Both the position numbers and the translations under genes were made by a program. Below, one piece after another: positions 2,481-12,586 of a stretch of DNA of 64,000 bases (the first letter of the stretch is position 1; every line of letters starts with the position of its first letter). The notes beneath the pieces were generated by a model that had not been told where the DNA came from, searched no databases, and saw only the letters and a program-made list of their open reading frames with translations. Origin of the DNA: Myxococcaceae bacterium (GTDB lineage Bacteria; Myxococcota; Myxococcia; Myxococcales; Myxococcaceae); assembly GCA_016793095.1 (NCBI GenBank), contig JAEUJQ010000073.1, positions 124,001 through 188,000 of the forward strand, read 5' to 3'.

Positions 2481-3830
2481 ATGAACTTCAACCGGTTGGT
2501 TGTCGTCGTGGTGGCCGTGGCGAGCTCGGCCTTCGCGCAGTTCAACGGGCAGACGGTCGCCGCCCGGAAGTCGCGCCCGGCTGACTTCGCCCTCGTCGTC
2601 GAACGGCGCGAGCTGAGGAATGGGCTTGTGCTGCTGATGAGCCCTGACGACGGAGCGAACGACGTCGCCGTCGAGCTGTCGTTCGGCTGCGGGGCCCTTC
2701 GGCAGGCGCCCGACCGCGCGGGCCTTCCCCACCTCGTCGAGCACGCGCTGGCCTCGGGGCCAACGCCTGAGACGGACTACCAGCGGCTGCTCGAGGCGCG
2801 CGGCGCGACCGACTTCAACGGCTTCACCACGATGGACCGCATGGGCTTCACCGGCGTCGTGCCGCCTGAGGAGCTGCCCTTCGCGCTCTGGGTGCACGCC
2901 GACCGCCTGGGGCGACGCGAGCGCCTCATCACTCCGGCCGACCTGGACAGGCATCGGCGCATCGTGCTGCAGGAGAAGCTGCTGCGCATCGAGGACGCCT
3001 CGTACGGCGCAGCCAGCCGAATGATGTTCCGCTACCTCTTCTCGAAGCGTCACCCGCTCCACGAGGGGATCATCGGCACCGCGGCGACGCTCGAGGCCAT
3101 CACCGTCGATGACGCGGTCGCCTTCGCGCGGACCTGTCTGGTGCCGAACAACGCGGTGCTGGCTCTCGCCGGGCGCTTCGAGGTCGAGCAGGCTGTGCGC
3201 GCGGCCGAGGCGACGCTGGGGCGAATCCCGGTGGGCGCGCCCCTCGAGCCCGTTCCCGAGACTCCGCGCCTCGCGCAAGGCCGCTCGGCGGAGGTCGTCG
3301 AGGACGTCGCCCGGAAGCCGCAGGTGACCATGGCGTGGTGGCTCCCCATGGTCCGGAAGGACGACGCGTACACCCTCTCGCTGGGAGCCACGTTGCTCGA
3401 GGTGTACACCGACGGCCTCATCGGCATGCGCGTGGAGTCCGCGTTCGTGCCCAATGGCGTGGGCGGCATCTTCGCGCTCTCGGTGACGACCCCTCACCCA
3501 CTCGGCGCGACCGAGCCCGCGAGCAACGCCGAGGTGGTGCTGCGGAACCTGACGTACGCACCGCTGCCTGCCGATGTCGTCGCAGCGAGCTACCACATGC
3601 TCGACCTCCAGCTCCTCGCGGGCCTGTCGTCCATGGCCCAGCGGGCAGGGCTCATCTCGCAGCTCTACCAGCAGGTCGAGGGCGCCCACACCCTCCCGCC
3701 GCTCGATCGCCACTGGCGCTTGAGCCCGGAGCAGTTGTTCGCGGGCAGCTCGCCGCTCCTCAAAGGAGCCCATGTCGTGCTCGAGTCGAAGCCCGTCCGG
3801 CCGCTCCCGCCGCCACGGAGGAGACGCTGA
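2481..3830 (+). CDS. M16 (pitrilysin-like) zinc peptidase, active subunit
   Basis: 449 residues from ATG 2481, which begins a clean signal peptide (about residues 1-19, ending AFA-Q), so the protein should act in the periplasm. The inverted zinc motif HLVEH is at residues 84-88, within GLPHLVEHAL, as in M16 peptidases; the third ligand is probably the Glu in QEKLLRIE about 75 residues on. The second half matches the inactive M16 C-terminal domain. Its stop overlaps the start of the next gene as TGATG (3828-3832), so the two are translationally coupled. The next product is a second M16 protein without the zinc motif; this is the usual heterodimer arrangement. Substrates are probably peptides or misfolded periplasmic proteins, by family inference. 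Confidence 0.88.
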   Translation: MNFNRLVVVVVAVASSAFAQFNGQTVAARKSRPADFALVVERRELRNGLVLLMSPDDGANDVAVELSFGCGALRQAPDRAGLPHLVEHALASGPTPETDYQRLLEARGATDFNGFTTMDRMGFTGVVPPEELPFALWVHADRLGRRERLITPADLDRHRRIVLQEKLLRIEDASYGAASRMMFRYLFSKRHPLHEGIIGTAATLEAITVDDAVAFARTCLVPNNAVLALAGRFEVEQAVRAAEATLGRIPVGAPLEPVPETPRLAQGRSAEVVEDVARKPQVTMAWWLPMVRKDDAYTLSLGATLLEVYTDGLIGMRVESAFVPNGVGGIFALSVTTPHPLGATEPASNAEVVLRNLTYAPLPADVVAASYHMLDLQLLAGLSSMAQRAGLISQLYQQVEGAHTLPPLDRHWRLSPEQLFAGSSPLLKGAHVVLESKPVRPLPPPRRRR

Positions 3831-5314
3831 TGCGCGCGCTCGTCTTCGTCGCTGCCCTGGCCTTCGCGTGCGCGACCCCGAGCACGTGGGCTCCCGTCGT
3901 CGTGAAGGTGAAGCCGCCCACCGCCTGGACGCCCACCGAGCCGCCACCACCCCTGGCTCCGATCGAGCGGCGCGTTCCCCAGGTCTCGACCTGGAAGCTG
4001 AAGAACGGCATCACGGTGGTGGTCGTCGAGCATCACCAGCGGCCGGTGGTGCGCCTGCGCCTGGTCTTCCCTTCAGGCTCGTCGAGCGACGACCCGGCCC
4101 GCGCGGGCGCGACGTGGTTCGCGCTGTCCCTGCTGGGCATGGGCCGCGAGCTGATGCTCCCCACCGGCGAGGTCGACCACACCGAGAAGACGCTGCGGCG
4201 CACGCTGCTCGAGCGCGGCGCAGCCTTTCGTGCCGGCGTGGACCTCGACGGCGCCTTCGTGGGCATCGACGGCCCCGCGCGTGACAGCCGGGCGCTGCTC
4301 GAGCTGCTCGCCGACGCCGTCCGCAACCCACGCCAGGGCGAGCAGTCGTTTGGCGTGCTCCTCGAGGAGGCAGCGGACTCGCTGGACGAGCGGCAGATCT
4401 CCGACCCGGAGGTCCTGAGCCGGGCCGTGCTGCAGCTCGCGTTCGGAGATGAAGAGGCAGGCGCGCCGCGCGGGACGGCCGAGAGCATCTCCCGCCTTGG
4501 CTGGGAGGAGGTCGTTCGCCGGCAGGCCGCGCTCGTGCACCCTCGCGGGGCGACGCTGCTCGTCACGGGCGACGTGGACCCTGTCGGCCTCAGGGCCACC
4601 CTCCAATCGACGTTCGGCGCGTGGAGCGGTGGAGACGGGGAGCCGACCGCTGCGAGGCCGGTGCGTGCGCGACCAGCCACCCGGAAGAGCGTGACCTTCC
4701 TTCCGCGGCCCGGCGCCCGGACAACGCTCGTGTGCGCGGCGAGGCCGCTCGGTGACGTGCCCGCGTCGGACGGCGTGCTGCGCGTGGTGGCCGATGTGCT
4801 GGGGCGCAGGCTCACGGCGCGCCTTCGCGAAGAGGCGACCCTGACCTACGACGTGTCAACCGGCCTCGAGTTCCGGGTCCAGAACCGGGGGCTCGTCGTC
4901 TGCTCCCGCCTGCCCGCGGCGGCGACCGAGCAGGGCCTGCAGCTGCTGCTGGCTGCGGTCGATCACCCCTCGACACCAACGCCCGACGAGGTCGAGCTCT
5001 CCCGGCGACAGCTCACCTCGTTCTTCGAGCGGGCGCAGACGAGCTTCGACGGCGTCTCGGGTCTGTGGCTCGGGAGCCTGCTGACCGGTCGCACGTTCGA
5101 CTCCGCGCGCACGCTCGCGGAGCTGCGTGACGTGAGCGTCGAACAGACCGCGGCGGCGTGGAAGCTGGTGACCGCCTCGTCGGCGCAGTACCAGCTCGTG
5201 ACGCTGGGGCAGCGGGCGCCCGTCGAGCAGGCCGCGACGGCCCTGAAGCTGGGGCGGCTGCGCACCCCCACGCTGAAGCAGGTGGAGACGGAGTCGCGCT
5301 TCGGCGCCGACTGA
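3830..5314 (+). CDS. M16 peptidase-like protein, non-catalytic partner
   Basis: 494 residues, starting at the ATG that overlaps the upstream stop. The N-terminus has a hydrophobic stretch ending AFAC near residue 14, a possible but non-ideal lipobox. The M16 N-domain is recognisable (LKNGITVVVVEHHQRPVV, followed by a strand ending in FPSGS), but where HXXEH should stand the sequence reads ARAGATWFAL, so the zinc site is absent. The C-domain keeps the family's Arg/Tyr-rich segment (RLREEATLTYDV), which in known heterodimers contributes to substrate binding in the partner. It most likely forms a complex with the 2481-3830 product in the periplasm. The next gene starts 60 bases downstream. Confidence 0.83.
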   Translation: MRALVFVAALAFACATPSTWAPVVVKVKPPTAWTPTEPPPPLAPIERRVPQVSTWKLKNGITVVVVEHHQRPVVRLRLVFPSGSSSDDPARAGATWFALSLLGMGRELMLPTGEVDHTEKTLRRTLLERGAAFRAGVDLDGAFVGIDGPARDSRALLELLADAVRNPRQGEQSFGVLLEEAADSLDERQISDPEVLSRAVLQLAFGDEEAGAPRGTAESISRLGWEEVVRRQAALVHPRGATLLVTGDVDPVGLRATLQSTFGAWSGGDGEPTAARPVRARPATRKSVTFLPRPGARTTLVCAARPLGDVPASDGVLRVVADVLGRRLTARLREEATLTYDVSTGLEFRVQNRGLVVCSRLPAAATEQGLQLLLAAVDHPSTPTPDEVELSRRQLTSFFERAQTSFDGVSGLWLGSLLTGRTFDSARTLAELRDVSVEQTAAAWKLVTASSAQYQLVTLGQRAPVEQAATALKLGRLRTPTLKQVETESRFGAD

Positions 5315-5374: not shown

Positions 5375-5512
5375 ATGCGAGTTCTCTCCACCCTCGTCGT
5401 CATCGCGAGCGCGGCTGCCTTCGCTCAGGCTGTCAAGCCGCCCAGTGGCGGCACCTGGACGATGCAGGTGCGCGTGTCTCCCAACAAGTCGGCGCAGGGC
5501 CGCTACCGTTGA
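5375..5512 (+). CDS. 45-residue predicted secreted peptide
   Basis: A short reading frame from ATG 5375 to TGA 5510-5512. The first ~18 residues are a textbook signal peptide (MRVLSTLVVIASAAAFAQ), leaving a mature peptide of only about 27 residues containing PPSGGTWTMQV. No clear Shine-Dalgarno sequence precedes it. It lies directly after the M16 pair, so it might be a small exported peptide or the surviving 5' end of a larger secreted protein. The signal peptide argues against chance, but no homolog is recognised and no function can be given. Confidence 0.45.
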   Translation: MRVLSTLVVIASAAAFAQAVKPPSGGTWTMQVRVSPNKSAQGRYR

Positions 5513-5561
5513 CCGGGGCATCGCGCCGATGGTGGTCTCTCATCATTTGCGGAGGCGGAGC

Positions 5562-6128
5562 GTGACGTTCGACCAGGCCCTCGAGGATGTGAGAAGACGC
5601 TATCGCGCGCGCCGACGGCGACGCCTGGCCATGCCCTTCGTGACAGCTGCCGCCACCAGCGTGGCGATTGGGGGGGTAGCCGCGTACGTTGGCGGGTGGT
5701 GGGGAGTACCGGTGGGGGTCGGCGTCCTGGCCGTCACTCTTCTCGACCGACTGTTCACGTCCCGCTTCTACGAGTTTTCCTGGAAGCTCCCTGATGCAGG
5801 GAGCGACCCTTATGAGCAGTTCAGGAGGAAGCCTCCGGAGCTCTGGGCCCACAGTCCGTCGCACGGCCTTCTGGTTGCCGACCAGGGCTGGTTGTTGCTC
5901 GGCGACGCGTCGTACGCATTCGACCGGCATGCCCCCGAACGCGTCACCTCGGTGAGCTACGACGAAGCCGCTCACACGCTCATCGTCCACGCCGTTCGGC
6001 TCGTTCAGATGAGCGACGGAGGAACCAGGGAAGCCATCGTTCGTGAACTCGTTCGTCTGGACGCCTCGCTCAAGCCGGAGGCCGCCCTCGCCCTGGCCGG
6101 GCAGTTGCTTGAACGCGCGGCGCGCTGA
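5562..6128 (+). CDS. Unknown membrane protein with two N-terminal helices
   Basis: 188 residues from GTG 5562, preferred over the in-frame ATG 5529 because GGAGG at 5551-5555 sits just upstream of it. The N-terminus is Arg-rich (RRRYRARRRRR) and is followed by two hydrophobic segments separated by GGWWG, predicting a hairpin in the inner membrane with a positive cytoplasmic face. The rest is soluble, with tryptophan-rich strands (DQGWLLLGDASYAFDR) resembling a PH- or YcxB-like beta domain. No catalytic motif is visible. It lies between the small exported peptide and the radical SAM cassette, with no overlap to either. Confidence 0.62.
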   Translation: MTFDQALEDVRRRYRARRRRRLAMPFVTAAATSVAIGGVAAYVGGWWGVPVGVGVLAVTLLDRLFTSRFYEFSWKLPDAGSDPYEQFRRKPPELWAHSPSHGLLVADQGWLLLGDASYAFDRHAPERVTSVSYDEAAHTLIVHAVRLVQMSDGGTREAIVRELVRLDASLKPEAALALAGQLLERAAR

Positions 6129-6158: not shown

Positions 6159-6806
6159 ATGCGCGGGACCAGCTACGCTGGGCGCGTGGACGACGACGAC
6201 GCGTTCCGGCTCAACTCGCTCAACCGTTTCCAGAAGCGGTCGAACCTGGTGCTCGAGGCCCACTCGCACTGCGAGGTGCCGGCGGGCTGCGGCGGCGTGG
6301 TGTTCCAGTGGCGCAATCCGGCGTTGGGCGTCACCGTGCGGGTGCACGTGCGCTCCTCGTCGCGCGTGGCAGAGGCCTTCATCGACGGGGTGCCGGTGTC
6401 GGGCCTGGGCGTGCGGCTCCAGCCCGGTGGACACCTGCTGGCGCTCGCCCTCGTCCCCGCGCAGGAGGAGCCCGCCACCGCGCCCTGGGTGATGGTGCAC
6501 CTCGAGCGGCGCGAGCCCGGAGCTCCGACGTACCCCGTGCAGCGCCTCGCCGGTGGAGAGACCCGCGACGACGGCTCCTGGCGGGCGACGACGACGCCCC
6601 CGCCGACCGGCTGGACGGAGCGGGGCTTCGATGACGCGACGTGGGCGCCGCTGCGCCGCTCCTCCACCGCCGGGCGCGACCTCGAGCACTGGGCCCGCCG
6701 CAGCTTCGACGAGGACCGGCGGCTGGGCTCCGAGCCCCTCGCCATTCCGGGCGTTCCGGCCTGGCTGCGCAAACGCTTCGAGCTTCCCCGCCAGGTGAGC
6801 CGCTGA
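6159..6806 (+). CDS. Jelly-roll (galactose-binding-like) protein of the radical SAM cassette
   Basis: 215 residues if ATG 6159 is used; GTG 6186, right after a TACGCT hexamer, is an alternative that removes nine residues. No signal peptide is seen. The C-terminal part contains DGSWRATTTPPPTGW, then FDDATW and LRKRFELP, the pattern of the beta-sandwich accessory domains found in glycosidases and sialate esterases (GW...FDDS.W...lRr.f). The N-terminal half is also beta-rich. Its stop overlaps the ATG of the radical SAM gene (TGATG at 6804-6808), implying translational coupling and probably joint function. It could bind sugar or act as a scaffold for the radical SAM protein; no catalytic motif is seen. 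Confidence 0.65.
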   Translation: MRGTSYAGRVDDDDAFRLNSLNRFQKRSNLVLEAHSHCEVPAGCGGVVFQWRNPALGVTVRVHVRSSSRVAEAFIDGVPVSGLGVRLQPGGHLLALALVPAQEEPATAPWVMVHLERREPGAPTYPVQRLAGGETRDDGSWRATTTPPPTGWTERGFDDATWAPLRRSSTAGRDLEHWARRSFDEDRRLGSEPLAIPGVPAWLRKRFELPRQVSR

Positions 6807-8092
6807 TGACGGCGGCGCCCCTCGTCCTCACCCCGCAGCACTTCGGCGGCCTCGTCTTCGAGCGCAGCTCGTCGCGGTACCTGCCCTTCGACGTTGACGC
6901 CACCGCGGTGCTGCGCGAGCTCGCCGAGCGGCCCTTCCCCGAGCTCATGGCCCGCCGCGCGCCTCACGAGCACGAGGCGCTCGAGGCCTTCTACGAGTCC
7001 TTCGACGCGCGCGGCTGGTTCACCGTGGACGGGCGCTTCGCCGGCGTGGTGAACGAGGTCGCCCGGGTGCCGGCGGGCCACCTCGTGGGGCCGCTCGCCG
7101 TGCACGTCGAGGTGGTGGGCGCGTGCACCCTGGCCTGCACGCACTGCTTCGCCGACCCGCTGCCGCGCAACCGCGAGCTGCTGACGCTGGACGAGCTGCG
7201 CGCGCTCTTCCGCGAGCTCGCCTCGATGGGCAGCTTCCGGCTGGGCCTCACGGGTGGAGAGCCGCTGCTCCGCCGCGAGCTGCTCGACGTCATCGACGCC
7301 GCCACCGGCGCCGGCCTGCACCCGTGCCTGACGACGAACGGCCTGTTGCTCGACGAGCGCTGGGCGAAGGAGCTGGGCGCGCGCGAGCTGGTGTGGCTCA
7401 ACGTCAGCCTCGACGGCGCGACCGCCGCGACGAATGACGCCGTGCGCGGCCGCGGCACCTTCGACGCGGTGGTGTCGAAGCTGCGCGCGCTGGGCCGCTT
7501 CATGCGCTTCACGCTCTCGTTCACGGTGATGCGCGGCAACGCGCACGAGGTGGTGGCCTTCACCGAGCTGGCGAAGGAGCTGGGCGCGCACAACGTCGTG
7601 TTCCGCCCGTTGTACCCCGTCGGCGCCGCCCGCCACCGGCCCGAGCTGATGCCGGAGTACGAGCAGTACGCGGAGGCGCTCCGCTCGCTGGCCGACCGGG
7701 GCGCGGTGCGCGGCATCGACCCGTTCAGCCCGCAGGCGCGCGCCGACTCGAGCGCGGCTGTGCATGGGAACTCAGGCTGCGGCGCGGCGAACTCCATCGC
7801 CACCATCTCGGCGCGGGGTGACGTGAGCCCGTGCAGCTTCCTGGGCCCTGCGTTCGACGTGGCCAACGTGCGCGACCGCCCGTTCCGCGACATCTGGAAC
7901 GAGGGCGAGGGCTTTCGCGTCATGCGCGCGCTGTCCACCTCGCCCGCGCCGGGCCGGTTCAGCGGAGGATGTCGGGCGCGCGCCCTGCGGCTCGCCGGTG
8001 ACGTGGACGCGGCGGACCCCTGGCAGGAGGCGTGGGAGCGCCGGAAAGACACACCGCCGCCGTCGTACACCTTGCCCGTGCTCTCGTCGTGA
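6806..8092 (+). CDS. Radical SAM protein with PqqD-like N-domain and SPASM/twitch-like C-domain
   Basis: 428 residues. CX3CX2C is at residues 107-114 (CTLACTHC) and should bind the SAM-cleaving 4Fe-4S cluster; a glycine-rich segment follows (GLTGGEPLLRRE). Residues 1-80 do not belong to the radical SAM core; they resemble a PqqD-type peptide-recognition domain (GGLVFERSSSRYLPFD, then an helix and a fl.eLdarGw-like end). The C-terminal part has three further Cys: GCG, then RGDVSPC (the G-X4-C signature of SPASM) and GGC, so an auxiliary cluster of twitch size is likely. Such proteins usually modify ribosomal peptides or build cofactors. No precursor peptide gene is obvious. Coupled to both neighbours. 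Confidence 0.85.
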   Translation: MTAAPLVLTPQHFGGLVFERSSSRYLPFDVDATAVLRELAERPFPELMARRAPHEHEALEAFYESFDARGWFTVDGRFAGVVNEVARVPAGHLVGPLAVHVEVVGACTLACTHCFADPLPRNRELLTLDELRALFRELASMGSFRLGLTGGEPLLRRELLDVIDAATGAGLHPCLTTNGLLLDERWAKELGARELVWLNVSLDGATAATNDAVRGRGTFDAVVSKLRALGRFMRFTLSFTVMRGNAHEVVAFTELAKELGAHNVVFRPLYPVGAARHRPELMPEYEQYAEALRSLADRGAVRGIDPFSPQARADSSAAVHGNSGCGAANSIATISARGDVSPCSFLGPAFDVANVRDRPFRDIWNEGEGFRVMRALSTSPAPGRFSGGCRARALRLAGDVDAADPWQEAWERRKDTPPPSYTLPVLSS

Positions 8093-8099
8093 GGCGCCC

Positions 8100-9215
8100 G
8101 TGAAGAGCATCACCGAGGAGCTCATCGAGCGCGTCGTCGGGCGGGGCGACCCCGATGACGACCCGTCGGTGGCGTCGGTGCTCGCCGACCTCGCGCTCGA
8201 GGCGAATGACAAGCCGCTCGCTGCGTCGGCGCTCGACCGCGCGTGTGGGCTCTCTCCCCGCGATGCAGGGCTCTCGAGGCTTCGCGCGCAGGTGCTCGAC
8301 GAGCTGGCCGTCACCGAGCATGGCCTCGTGTTCCGGTACATCCCTGCCGGCAGCTTCCTGATGGGCAGCACCACCGGCGACGCAGACGAACGCCCCGTAC
8401 ACCTCGAGCGCGTGCCCGCCTTCTGGGTGACGGAGACGTGTGTCACCTGGGCCGACCACTGTCGCCTGATGGGGTGGGCGCCGCCGCCCGACGGCTCGCC
8501 GCCCGAAGAGGCCGAAGCGCCGTTTCCTCCGCAGATGCTCGAGAGCCGCGTGCGGCTCCAGTACTGCGAGACCGACACGCTCGAGGCGCGCGACTGGCAC
8601 GCGCACGCGGGCATGCCCGACTTCGGCGAGGTGCCCCGGGCGTCACCGGGCGCGCCCGACTACGGCGTGAAGCCGATGGTGGCGGTCGGCTGGCGAACCG
8701 CGGCCGCGCTGGGTGAGCGCCTCTCGACGGAGGCGGTGCAGGTCGGCCTGCCGACGGAGCGCGAGTGGGAGCGCGCCGCCCGCGGAGGTCTCATCGGCGC
8801 CCGCTACGCGTGGGGCAATGAGCCGCCCGACCCGTCGCGGTGTGACTTCGGCCACTTCGGCGACTTCGCCATTCGCGCGCCAAAGTCGCTGCCGCCCAAC
8901 GGCTACGGGCTCTACGGCCCGTGTGGCGGCGTCTCGGAGTGGACGTGCGACCCGTACGATGCGCTGGCCTTCCACCCGCGCCGGCCCCCGGCGTCGTTCA
9001 CCGACGCGAGCCCGCGGGTGCTGCGGGGCGGGTGCTTCACCGACGACGAAGAGGCCGTCACCGTCAGCTTCCGCATGGCCCTCACCGACGAGCAGGGCGC
9101 CGGCAGTCCCACCGTCGGCTTCCGCCTGGTGCGTCGAGTCCCGCCGGTGCCGGCGCTCGCCGCGAGAGGGCCGAGCGCCAGGCCGCCCGTGGCGAGTGGA
9201 CGCCGGCGCCGGTGA
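8100..9215 (+). CDS. SUMF1/formylglycine-generating-enzyme-like domain protein
   Basis: 371 residues from GTG 8100, chosen because GAGG lies immediately upstream and the gene then starts 7 bases after the previous stop. Residues ~1-75 form a helical front part. The FGE-sulfatase fold follows: FRYIPAGSFLMGS, ERPVHLERVPAFWVTE, GLPTEREWERAARGG, YAWGNEPP, NGYGLYGPCGGVSEWT, RVLRGGCF and terminal GFRLVRR. The paired copper-binding cysteines of true formylglycine-generating enzymes are not present near the C-terminus; a single Cys stands in RGGCF. It may therefore be a SUMF1-fold protein of other function (EgtB/OvoA-like oxidase, or a carbohydrate-binding version). Same operon as the radical SAM gene. 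Confidence 0.82.
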   Translation: MKSITEELIERVVGRGDPDDDPSVASVLADLALEANDKPLAASALDRACGLSPRDAGLSRLRAQVLDELAVTEHGLVFRYIPAGSFLMGSTTGDADERPVHLERVPAFWVTETCVTWADHCRLMGWAPPPDGSPPEEAEAPFPPQMLESRVRLQYCETDTLEARDWHAHAGMPDFGEVPRASPGAPDYGVKPMVAVGWRTAAALGERLSTEAVQVGLPTEREWERAARGGLIGARYAWGNEPPDPSRCDFGHFGDFAIRAPKSLPPNGYGLYGPCGGVSEWTCDPYDALAFHPRRPPASFTDASPRVLRGGCFTDDEEAVTVSFRMALTDEQGAGSPTVGFRLVRRVPPVPALAARGPSARPPVASGRRRR

Positions 9216-9475: not shown

Positions 9476-10153
9476 TCAAGGCCCACCGTCTGCGCCGCCG
9501 TCGCGTGTCCCGGCGTCACGCACAGCGACGCAGCGTTCACAGGTGACCGAGGGAGAGCGGTTCGCATCGCAGACCCACTCACCGACTCCGCCATCGCCGC
9601 AGCTGCACGGCGGGCCCGGGGTCGCATACATCGGCACGCGTTCGCCCGTCGGCGCGGTGCACGAGGGCGGCTGTTTGTTGTGCACCAGCACCCCCTCGGC
9701 GACGAAGGTGTGCCACTCATGGGCGACGGTGAGATCGAACACCTCGTCGAGCCGCGAGAAGGCCTCCGAGGCCTCGACCCGAACGATGCTGGCTCCCGAG
9801 TCGGAGATCTCGAGCAGGTGACTGCGGCGCCCGAGCAGCCAGTCGCCGGCGGGAAAGAACCCGCGCGCGCGCGGATCGTAGAGCGGGTGGTCCGAGGTCA
9901 CCGAGAGCGCCCGGCCCGAGAAGCGGAGCGTTCCGCACTCCCTGGTGCTCTGCTTCACCGCCTCGAGCCGCCCCACCGCGGTGAGCCCTGTCTCAGGGTC
10001 GGCCACGATGAGCTCGTCACCCACCTCGAGCTCCTCGATGGGACGATGGCCGGCGGGCGTCTTCACCCGCGAGCCCCGAGCGACACAGAAGGGGAAGGGC
10101 CCACACGCCGCCAGCGACGACGCCACCCCCAGGCCTGCGAACAGCTTCTTCAT
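9476..10153 (-). CDS. Lipoprotein containing a Hint (hedgehog/intein) self-splicing domain
   Basis: 225 residues, GGGAGG upstream of ATG. The lipobox LAAC places the lipidated Cys at 17. Only five residues later a Hint domain begins at Cys23: CVARGSRVKTPAG, then IEELEVGDELIV; block B is VTSDHPLY (T86, H89) and the end is VFDLTV...VLVHNK with His158-Asn159. All residues needed for N-S shift and Asn cyclisation seem present, so autoproteolysis could release the C-terminal part. After the Hint, ~65 residues are Cys-rich (PPCSCGDGG, VTCERC) and end in a DGG tail. Similar Hint modules occur in secreted polymorphic toxins, but there is no toxin domain here. Convergent with the radical SAM operon. 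Confidence 0.82.
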   Translation of the reverse strand: MKKLFAGLGVASSLAACGPFPFCVARGSRVKTPAGHRPIEELEVGDELIVADPETGLTAVGRLEAVKQSTRECGTLRFSGRALSVTSDHPLYDPRARGFFPAGDWLLGRRSHLLEISDSGASIVRVEASEAFSRLDEVFDLTVAHEWHTFVAEGVLVHNKQPPSCTAPTGERVPMYATPGPPCSCGDGGVGEWVCDANRSPSVTCERCVAVRDAGTRDGGADGGP

Positions 10154-10174: not shown

Positions 10175-11077
10175 TCAGCCGATCGACTGGGCGCGCGCGA
10201 GCGCGTACCGCACCATCTCGCTCGCCACGTCCTGCTTCGTCGTGCGCTCGAGGCCTTCGAAGCCGGGCGACGAGTTGAGCTCCATGACGCAGGGGCCGTC
10301 ACGGCCCTCGAGCATGTCGACGCCGCAGATCTCCAGCCCCACCGTCTTCGCGGCCTTCACGGCGGTCTCGCGGAAGGTGGCGTCGAGCTCGACCGGGCTG
10401 CCCTCGCCGCCGCGGTGCAGGTTGCTCCGGAACTCGCCGGCCCGGGCCTGCCGCCGCATCGCGCCCACCACGCGCTCGCCCACCACGAGCGCGCGCACGT
10501 CGCGGCCGCTCGACTCGGCGACGAACTCCTGCAGGCAGATGTCCTGGCCGAGCGAGGTGAAGGTGTCGACGATGGTGCGGGCCTCGTTCATCGTCGTGGC
10601 CAGCATCACGCCGACGCCCTGAGTGCCGCGGAGCAGCTTGATGATGCAGGGCAGCCCGCCCACCGCGTCCACGAGCCGCACGATGTGGGTCGTGTCGTGC
10701 GCCATCACGGTGCGGGGAATCCGAACACCTCCAGCGCTGAGCAGCTGCAGGCAGCGCACCTTGTCGCGGCTGCGCGCGATGGCGTGCGCCTGGTTGATGA
10801 CGGGCACGCCCATGGTGGCGAGGTGGTTGACCACCTGCATGCCGTAGTTGGTGATGCTCGTGCCGATGCGGGGGATGGCGACGGACAGGCCCTCGACCGC
10901 GACGCCCCGGTACAGGAGCTTCGAGCCGCCGCCTCCGACCACCATGGTGCACCGCAACGTGTCCATCACGATGGGGCTCGCCCCCAGGGCCGTGGCGGCC
11001 TCGACCAGGCGCGTCGTCGAGTAGAGCGAGCGCTGCCGGGAGAGGATGCACAGCCGCTGGTGGCGCACCCGCGTCAC
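10175..11077 (-). CDS. rimK: RimK-family ATP-grasp ligase (glutamate ligase type)
   Basis: 300 residues from GTG 11077, the same length as E. coli RimK. The start overlaps the stop of the upstream amidohydrolase (GTGA), so they are translationally coupled. ATP-grasp features are readable: NQAHAIARSRDKVRCLQLL, then PCIIKLLRGTQGVGVML (nucleotide-binding Lys and Gly loop), QEFV, ALVVGERVVGAMRR, RSNLHRGG, and the Mg-binding CGVDMLEGRDGPCVMELN. RimK adds glutamates to the C-terminus of ribosomal protein S6; related ligases act on cofactors or small peptides, so the exact acceptor is not certain. It shares a transcript with a lipoprotein amidohydrolase, an unusual pairing. Confidence 0.87.
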   Translation of the reverse strand: MTRVRHQRLCILSRQRSLYSTTRLVEAATALGASPIVMDTLRCTMVVGGGGSKLLYRGVAVEGLSVAIPRIGTSITNYGMQVVNHLATMGVPVINQAHAIARSRDKVRCLQLLSAGGVRIPRTVMAHDTTHIVRLVDAVGGLPCIIKLLRGTQGVGVMLATTMNEARTIVDTFTSLGQDICLQEFVAESSGRDVRALVVGERVVGAMRRQARAGEFRSNLHRGGEGSPVELDATFRETAVKAAKTVGLEICGVDMLEGRDGPCVMELNSSPGFEGLERTTKQDVASEMVRYALARAQSIG

Positions 11078-12471
11078 GGCACCCTCTCGACGAGCCGCCC
11101 ACCCTGCATGACGTGCGCGATGCGCGAGGTGGCGGTGATGTCGGCCAGCGGATCGCCGTCGACGAGCACGAGGTCGGCCCGCTTGCCCGGCTCGATGGTG
11201 CCGAAGTCGGCGTTCGGGCCCGCGATGAAGCGCGCCGGGAGCACGGTCGCTCCGCGCAGCACGTCCGCGTTGGGGACGCCGGCCTCGGACAGGAGCCGCA
11301 GCTCGTCGAGGTACGCGCCGCCCGCCAGGCAGCCGATGGAGCCCGACGCGTCGCTGCCCACCAGCAACGGCACGCCGGCGTCGTACAGCGTCTTCACCGC
11401 GGCGATCCGGTCGGCCCGGTCGGCCTTCAACTTCGCGAGCCACTCGAGCAGCTGCGGGTCCAGCGTCTTGCCGGCGCTCCCGGCCGGCGAGAACGGCTCG
11501 AGGAAGTCGGCCGGGTAGAGCCACTTCTCGGCGTCGGTCGGCGCGAAGCGGCGCTCGTAGAGCTGCTCGGCGCGGTCGAACACCACCAGCGTGGGCGCCA
11601 CCACGACGCCAGCCTGCTTGAGCTCGAGGGCCTCGGCAGCCGTGAGCGCGCCAAGGTGAATGCCGTGCATCAGCGCGTCCACGCCGGCGCGCACCGCCCG
11701 CAGCGCGTGCACCGCGGTGTCGGTGTGCGCGACCGCCTTCACGCCGCGCTCGTGGGCCCGCGTCGCCGTCGCCTTCACGAGCTCTGGCGGCATCGTCTGG
11801 GCGTTGAGCGGCACGCTCGCGATGGCCAGCTTGATGTGGTGCGCGCCGTTGTGGAGCCGCCAGTCCACCGCCGCGACCGCCTCGAGCGGCTCGGACACCG
11901 GGCCCGAGAAGCGCTTGTCGGCGACCGTGTTCGCCGGCCACGGGAAGAGGATGTTCACCATCGACGTCGGGTAGCCGTCGCGAAGGGAGACGATCTGCCC
12001 CGAGTACCAGAAGCGCGGGCCCAGGTACGACGGCTCGGCCTGCGACTTCCACAACGCCTTGAGGCGCTCGAGCTCGCCGCCCACGTCCATCGCGCTGGTG
12101 ACGCCCGAGGCGAGCAGCGCCCGCAGGTTGTGGGGCTCGTCGGGCCAGGCCACCTTCCACGGCGGCGCCGGGCTGCCGGTGAGGTGCACGTGGAAGTCGA
12201 CGTAGCCGGGCACCAGCGTCTTGCCGGCGCCCTCGATGACGCGCGCGCCGGTGAGGTCCGTGCCCGTCGGCGCGATGGAGACGATCTTCCCGTTCTCGAC
12301 CCGCACGTCCTGGTGGTCGACCGCGCTGGTGTCCACGGCGGAGAAGACGCGCACGTCTCGGAAGACGGTGACAGTGGGGCTCGACGCCTCACGACGGATC
12401 AGCTCCGGGTAGCGGTAGGACGCAGGGCAACCGGTCAGCAGCAGCGCGAGGGCGAGGCGAGTCAGACGCAT
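11074..12471 (-). CDS. Amidohydrolase-family lipoprotein (imidazolonepropionase-like)
   Basis: 465 residues from ATG 12471; this start gives a signal peptide with lipobox LLTGC, so the enzyme should be membrane-anchored in the periplasm. The amidohydrolase fold is clear: GKTLVPGYVDFHVHL supplies the HXH metal pair, GVKAVAHTD and ALMHGIHLG supply later histidines, PLLVGSDASG gives the conserved Asp, and the tail GTIEPGKRADLVLVDGDPL is the usual C-terminal strand. This group includes Xaa-Pro dipeptidases and other lipoprotein amidohydrolases acting on cyclic amides or dipeptides; the substrate cannot be read from sequence. First gene of a two-gene operon with the RimK-like ligase. Confidence 0.88.
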   Translation of the reverse strand: MRLTRLALALLLTGCPASYRYPELIRREASSPTVTVFRDVRVFSAVDTSAVDHQDVRVENGKIVSIAPTGTDLTGARVIEGAGKTLVPGYVDFHVHLTGSPAPPWKVAWPDEPHNLRALLASGVTSAMDVGGELERLKALWKSQAEPSYLGPRFWYSGQIVSLRDGYPTSMVNILFPWPANTVADKRFSGPVSEPLEAVAAVDWRLHNGAHHIKLAIASVPLNAQTMPPELVKATATRAHERGVKAVAHTDTAVHALRAVRAGVDALMHGIHLGALTAAEALELKQAGVVVAPTLVVFDRAEQLYERRFAPTDAEKWLYPADFLEPFSPAGSAGKTLDPQLLEWLAKLKADRADRIAAVKTLYDAGVPLLVGSDASGSIGCLAGGAYLDELRLLSEAGVPNADVLRGATVLPARFIAGPNADFGTIEPGKRADLVLVDGDPLADITATSRIAHVMQGGRLVERVP

Positions 12472-12586
12472 GGAAGCGGAACCGTAGCGACAGTCGAAGT
12501 CAGTGACGATCGCCAACCTCAGCGACACCTGACAGCAGCGCTGCACGCCGCGTCGAGAGCACGAAAAATGTTTTGCCTCCCCTGAT

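Follow-up and report, generated by a model that had tools for sequence, protein, structure and literature searches.

A three-gene unit in the genome of a Myxococcaceae bacterium probably constitutes a self-contained protein-maturation cassette, in which the radical SAM enzyme R would modify a cysteine motif of its neighbour J, with the SUMF1-fold protein S assisting or performing a second step. The genes lie in a 64,000-nucleotide stretch of DNA, which we refer to as the window. J, R and S form a genuine unit, a conclusion that is virtually beyond doubt, and J is predicted from its sequence, with good confidence, to be the substrate of R.

The J-R-S trio and its conservation

The three genes are adjacent, span under 3.1 kb and are open throughout, and a self-trained codon score rates each of them as a gene (Table 1). 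A sequence-only reading of this DNA had described them as overlapping or touching, and the coordinates agree: J ends and R begins at 6806 within a TGATG overlap, and R, ending at 8092, is followed by S from a GTG at 8100. For J the alignment of homologs favours the GTG at 6186 over the ATG at 6159, which would add nine residues, and J is counted from that GTG.

Table 1. Features of the trio (window coordinates) and positions of TGC-repeat loci (coordinates within each locus)
Feature	Position	Strand	Basis
J, 206-aa putative substrate protein; about 43 conserved N-terminal residues, then a divergent beta-sandwich	6186-6806	+	Homologs align from 6186
J residues 10-25, leader-like stretch proposed to bind the RRE	6213-6260	+	Near-invariant columns, 18 homologs; leader role putative
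J residues 27-37, S-H-C-E-V-P-A-G-C-G-G, proposed modification motif	6264-6296	+	C29, G34, C35 and G37 invariant, 18/18
R, 428-aa RRE, radical SAM and Twitch-like enzyme	6806-8092	+	Pfam, AlphaFold, homolog alignment, profile comparison
RRE (PqqD-like) domain of R, residues ~6-82	6821-7051	+	AlphaFold secondary structure; alignment to SkfB RRE; hhalign to sister clade N-terminus
R CxxxCxxC radical SAM cluster motif, C107/C111/C114	7124-7147	+	Invariant, 17/17
R Twitch-like auxiliary cluster ligands C325, C343, C389	7778-7972	+	Invariant, 17/17
S, 371-aa SUMF1-fold protein, short TPR-like N-terminus, no FGE Cys pair	8100-9215	+	PF03781 7.3e-35; TPR_16 0.023
TGC-repeat locus L045	4774-5434	reverse complement	
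TGC-repeat locus L047	5307-5670	reverse complement	
TGC-repeat locus L048	1731-2136		
TGC-repeat locus L049	10241-11054		
TGC-repeat locus L050	10538-10820	reverse complement	
TGC-repeat locus L164	4757-5314		
TGC-repeat locus L165	6277-6684		

R was searched in 99 relatives and one genome collection and the neighbourhoods were then read; the genomes searched numbered 195 in the window's phylum and 379 in a second group reached through G195. Homologs of all three proteins occurred together in 21 myxobacterial-type genomes (10/195 and 11/379). Within the window's phylum J and S co-occur in the same 9/195 genomes; the tenth genome, G186, holds all three, with R cut by the contig end. J was present in 11/379 genomes of the second group, the same 11 that have R at E values below 1e-170 (the next R match is at 8e-61), and S is part of the set in each. 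The gene order is J-R-S in 18 genomes, J-S-R in two (G262 and G186) and R-J-S in one (G536), and no trio member is missing from the three rearranged genomes. That the order changes while the set stays complete speaks for J, R and S working together. The sequence-only reading had made its proposal of a system depend on the homologs staying together in other genomes; they do so in every one of these 21, through three gene orders and differing flanks.

Weak J-like matches in L110-L112 (secreted proteins) and G112 were excluded from the counts, as they match the beta-sandwich alone and have no motif. In G041 a fragment (L052, 9564-9953) is 59% identical to R residues 89-154 with J and S absent beside it, and is probably the remnant of a lost trio. 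Among plasmids the best full-length relative, on one from Rhizobium, adjoins a second radical SAM gene and is accompanied by neither J nor S.

Which genes flank the trio depends on the group: the window locus has M16 peptidases and a Hint protein, genus g23 has an acyltransferase-like gene and genes of PUFA/PKS type, and the second group has others. In the neighbourhoods read, no leader protease, exporter or other pathway gene was conserved beside the trio and no short precursor peptide was found; the sole conserved extra neighbour of the two enzymes is J itself, at about 190-225 aa. Classical RiPP pathways differ on both counts, with a short precursor and, next to the enzymes, a conserved gene for a leader protease or an exporter.

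Directly upstream of J in the window, a lower-GC ORF with a hydrophobic stretch and no family match (5445-6128, +) may encode a small membrane protein; further upstream are tandem overlapping genes for M16-family peptidases (2481-3830 and 3830-5314, +). Convergent to the trio is a gene for a putative lipoprotein (9476-10153, −) with a Hint/pretoxin-Hint domain (PF13403 2e-6, PF07591 1.4e-5) and an intein C-terminal motif, which is not conserved with the trio. At higher coordinates a RimK-like ATP-grasp ligase gene overlaps an amidohydrolase gene (10175-11077 and 11074-12546, −).

R is an RRE-containing radical SAM enzyme

Judged from its sequence and structural model, R is an RRE-dependent, Twitch-like radical SAM maturase: it has the CxxxCxxC motif, a fused RRE and auxiliary cysteines. 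Pfam assigns Radical_SAM (5.7e-21) and SPASM (4.9e-7). All matches to NCBIfam equivalog models fall below cut-off; the best-scoring are cofactor-pathway enzymes (mycofactocin, heme and PQQ), led by the mycofactocin maturase at 140 bits versus a cut-off of 265.

The first 80 residues of R had been read as an RRE/PqqD-like domain, a fold on which the proposal of a system likewise depended, and the predicted topology bears this out. In the AlphaFold model (mean pLDDT 53 overall) residues 6-67 form three strands (6-11, 14-19 and 24-29) followed by three helices (30-41, 44-50 and 53-67), the helices at pLDDT 82-94 and the strands only at about 56-62. A profile of 17 R homologs aligned from the RRE onward to the sactisynthase SkfB (4-266 to 14-278), with an E value of 4.2e-21 for the whole match, and the N-terminus of R matched that of a sister clade at 5.7e-8 (hhalign). 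A comparison with PqqD as a single sequence did not reach significance, and the assignment rests on the AlphaFold topology and the SkfB profile alignment. The same profile matched PqqE at 3e-24 (the best PDB match of the core), CteB at 3.5e-19 and, as a distant relative, anSME at 4.3e-11. VIA-align of the R model retrieved radical SAM folds at Z 10-12, an alignment that covers the core and barely touches the RRE.

Only six cysteines are invariant among the 17 full homologs (17/17): C107, C111 and C114 of the radical SAM motif, and C325, C343 and C389 in the C-terminus, where just three SPASM-type cysteines had been noted. Alignment to PqqE and the sister clade places the other SPASM cysteines as missing from R. 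As the related clade has the full seven, R has retained those that are aligned with the Aux I ligands of PqqE, and the others have been lost.

R was also considered as a viperin. The PADLOC pVip match (3.9e-22) spans the radical SAM core only and the NCBIfam viperin model scores 62.8 bits against a cut-off of 180, so this identity was dropped, and PADLOC yields no defence assignment.

J carries a conserved cysteine motif on a divergent beta-sandwich

J has no match in Pfam and, on inspection of its sequence, no signal-peptide-like start. It had been called a jelly-roll or beta-sandwich protein, a description in line with a match to a rhamnosidase domain that is only weak (3w5m, 3.8e-6 over 35 positions) and with a low-confidence AlphaFold beta-sandwich, in which residues 1-37 have pLDDT values below 50 and strands start at residue 37. 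Foldseek returned nothing from the PDB with an E value below 0.001, as expected of such a model.

Conservation in J is concentrated at the N-terminus: across 18 homologs the mean column entropy is 1.14 bits for residues 1-43 versus 2.17 bits for the remainder. The lowest-entropy nine-column window is residues 29-37, C-E-V-P-A-G-C-G-G, a value reached in 0/20000 column permutations. The motif S-x-C-E-V-P-x-G-C-G-G is nearly invariant and both its cysteines are present in 18/18 homologs. Variants are CEVPLGCGG, CEISAGCIG (G536) and CQGAPVGCGG, with one extra residue; E30 is Q in G186, and candidate acceptor residues are not fixed. N10, R14, K17, L21 and L23 are the conserved residues of the preceding leader-like stretch. 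Every homolog long enough to reach the beta-sandwich retains it. A constant segment for docking and modification, attached to a body that is free to drift, is what a substrate would be expected to look like, and a J with the two invariant cysteines is encoded beside R in 21/21 genomes. The earlier statement that no precursor is evident was therefore probably mistaken, as J looks like that substrate.

S has a SUMF1 fold but lacks the known metal sites

S matches FGE-sulfatase (PF03781, 7.3e-35), with a weak TPR_16 match (0.023) at its start. That S would have the SUMF1 fold without the paired copper cysteines of FGE had already been proposed, and alignment to FGE (6muj) agrees: neither copper Cys position holds a Cys in the window protein, the first being Asp. 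In the RGGS..C....C region the window sequence RGGCFTDDEEAVTVSFR has neither cysteine, and the second is absent from 18/18 S homologs. None of these 18 shares an invariant Cys, and the invariant residues are mostly SUMF1-fold positions. The N-terminus is a TPR-like segment of about 75 residues without an HxxxHxE motif; the DinB domain found in EgtB-type enzymes would not fit into this length. The NCBIfam EgtB and SenA models cover the SUMF1 part only and score below cut-off.

Known roles of the fold were rejected on these grounds. An FGE role lacks both the copper Cys pair in S and a CxPxR motif in J, where C-E-V-P-A-G-C is found, and an EgtB, OvoA or SenA role lacks the N-terminal DinB-like domain with its iron-binding His, besides the models falling below cut-off. 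A PvdO role was dropped with them, known sites being missing or matches below cut-off. Because S has neither the FGE nor the EgtB-type metal sites, the suggestion that radical SAM plus SUMF1 means two sequential modifications is unproven. S may serve to present the substrate, or it may be an enzyme that carries out a second step.

The nearest relatives of R adjoin TGC-repeat peptides

In a tree of 42 proteins the R enzymes of the trio group together (99/100). Next to them stands a second clade, probably their sister, whose support of 93/93 falls slightly short of the strict mark. This second clade adjoins short peptides in which TGCG, TGCS or TGCA recurs and TGC comes last. Like the trio it has a homologous N-terminal domain and a Gly-Cys-small motif in the neighbouring product, whereas it differs in its full seven-Cys SPASM, its short multi-core peptides and the lack of J and S (L045-L050, L164 and L165). 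Gly-Cys-small is thus common to the putative substrates of both clades; as a short motif it is supporting, not decisive.

At least eight genomes have, immediately next to an RRE-radical SAM-SPASM gene, peptides with (S/T/A)TGC(G/S/A) repeats that end in TGC; the middle of some of these peptides is EF-hand-like. They belong to no Pfam or NCBIfam family and are possibly an unnamed multi-core peptide class.

Discussion

Taken as a whole, the earlier interpretation stands in part: the RRE and the staying together of the genes are supported, while the absence of a precursor is most likely wrong. We propose that the fused RRE of R would dock the N-terminal stretch of J, and that the SAM-derived radical would then act on the C-E-V-P-x-G-C-G-G motif. 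A Cys-sulphur-to-carbon (thioether) link would be the most likely product, although this bond type is put forward tentatively. The three-Cys auxiliary cluster may help to bind the Cys or oxidise an intermediate, as proposed for enzymes of the SkfB/CteB type, and S may be a binding or presenting partner or perform a second step. The end product would be a beta-sandwich protein that is modified and stays inside the cell; neither a leader protease nor an exporter belongs to the cassette. What the analysis shows is the unit, the RRE, the three-Cys tail, the conserved motif and the lack of an FGE Cys pair in S, whereas J as substrate, the type of bond, the role of S and the use of modified J are our inferences.

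The assignment of J as substrate draws on the one-to-one occurrence of J with R and with S in three gene orders and differing flanks; on the RRE plus Twitch architecture of R; on the restriction of conservation to some 43 N-terminal residues centred on two invariant cysteines; and on the nearest R clade lying directly beside TGC-repeat peptides. In SkfB (the sporulation killing factor sactisynthase, PDB 6efn) RRE, radical SAM core and Twitch domain follow one another as in R; the [2Fe-2S] cluster of its Twitch domain shows three ligands and an open site, and in CteB a site on Aux I is likewise open (PMC6231123). The tail cysteines are spaced differently (C351, C385 and C387 in SkfB versus C325, C343 and C389 in R). 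Sactisynthases such as these, which are defined by a Cys-S to C-alpha thioether in the substrate, share with the trio a Cys-containing candidate substrate encoded beside the enzyme, but SkfB has a 55-residue peptide substrate and export genes, whereas the trio has a likely protein substrate of about 200 residues and a SUMF1 partner. PqqE, despite its match to the core of R, has two auxiliary clusters, a separate PqqD and the short-peptide substrate PqqA. A protein-level thioether has a precedent in QhpD, which forms thioethers inside a whole protein subunit (PMC8172795) in quinohemoprotein amine dehydrogenase maturation. That substrate carries several Cys-to-Asp/Glu links, with protease and monooxygenase partners, whereas the trio has no such partners and another motif. 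Counting against the proposal are the sister peptides sharing only Gly-Cys-small, the deviating motif of G536, the variable acceptors, the low confidence of the J model and the non-significant comparison with a single PqqD.

A bolder form of the proposal, which we consider doubtful, is that R and S, the latter with an uncharacterised active site, act in two steps to install a new cross-link or protein-derived cofactor in the C-E-V-P-x-G-C-G-G loop, J then serving as a binding or redox protein in myxobacterial cells.

Since the J model is of low confidence, the motif might instead be a site for a metal or for redox chemistry. On that view J would stay unmodified, its Cys loop would bind a metal or cofactor or serve as a redox pair, while R and S would make a small molecule, or modify a target encoded elsewhere, that J handles. 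The two invariant cysteines could bind a metal together with H83 and D67, and the top NCBIfam models for R, below their cut-offs, come from cofactor pathways. However, a fused RRE is a peptide-docking domain, the conserved block of J includes the leader-like stretch and the trio has no further pathway gene conserved next to it, so we regard this as unlikely. Still less probable is that S or another cellular protein is modified and J is an accessory that presents it: S is a large conserved partner that is always in the set, but it has no invariant Cys and the single short, extremely conserved segment is found in J. The least probable reading takes the N-terminal ~45 residues of J as a precursor cleaved from a disposable follower or an immunity or escort domain, which would suit the peptide-sized conserved part and the true short precursors of related clades, but the trio has neither a protease nor a transporter as a conserved neighbour, and the beta-sandwich is retained.

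The enzyme type of R is known, while the three-part set is without description in any open-licence paper found. No such paper described SUMF1 plus radical SAM as a gene set, and the string CEVPAGCGG was absent from those searched. A study of conflict systems places FGS domains and SPASM enzymes in different systems and not in a J-R-S trio (eLife 2020, PMC7159879). On the best reading, what is new here is radical SAM maturation of a protein rather than of a small peptide, and if J is the substrate the trio is a further example in which a folded protein undergoes this chemistry. To our knowledge it would also be the first set that always pairs a radical SAM enzyme with a SUMF1-fold protein that has lost its copper site.

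With putative substrate, motif and enzyme in three adjacent genes, the claim is directly testable by co-expression, and the TGC-repeat peptides of the sister clade provide a second, simpler candidate substrate for reading out the same type of chemistry. The trio would also offer a route to the function of the large group of SUMF1 proteins that are not FGEs.
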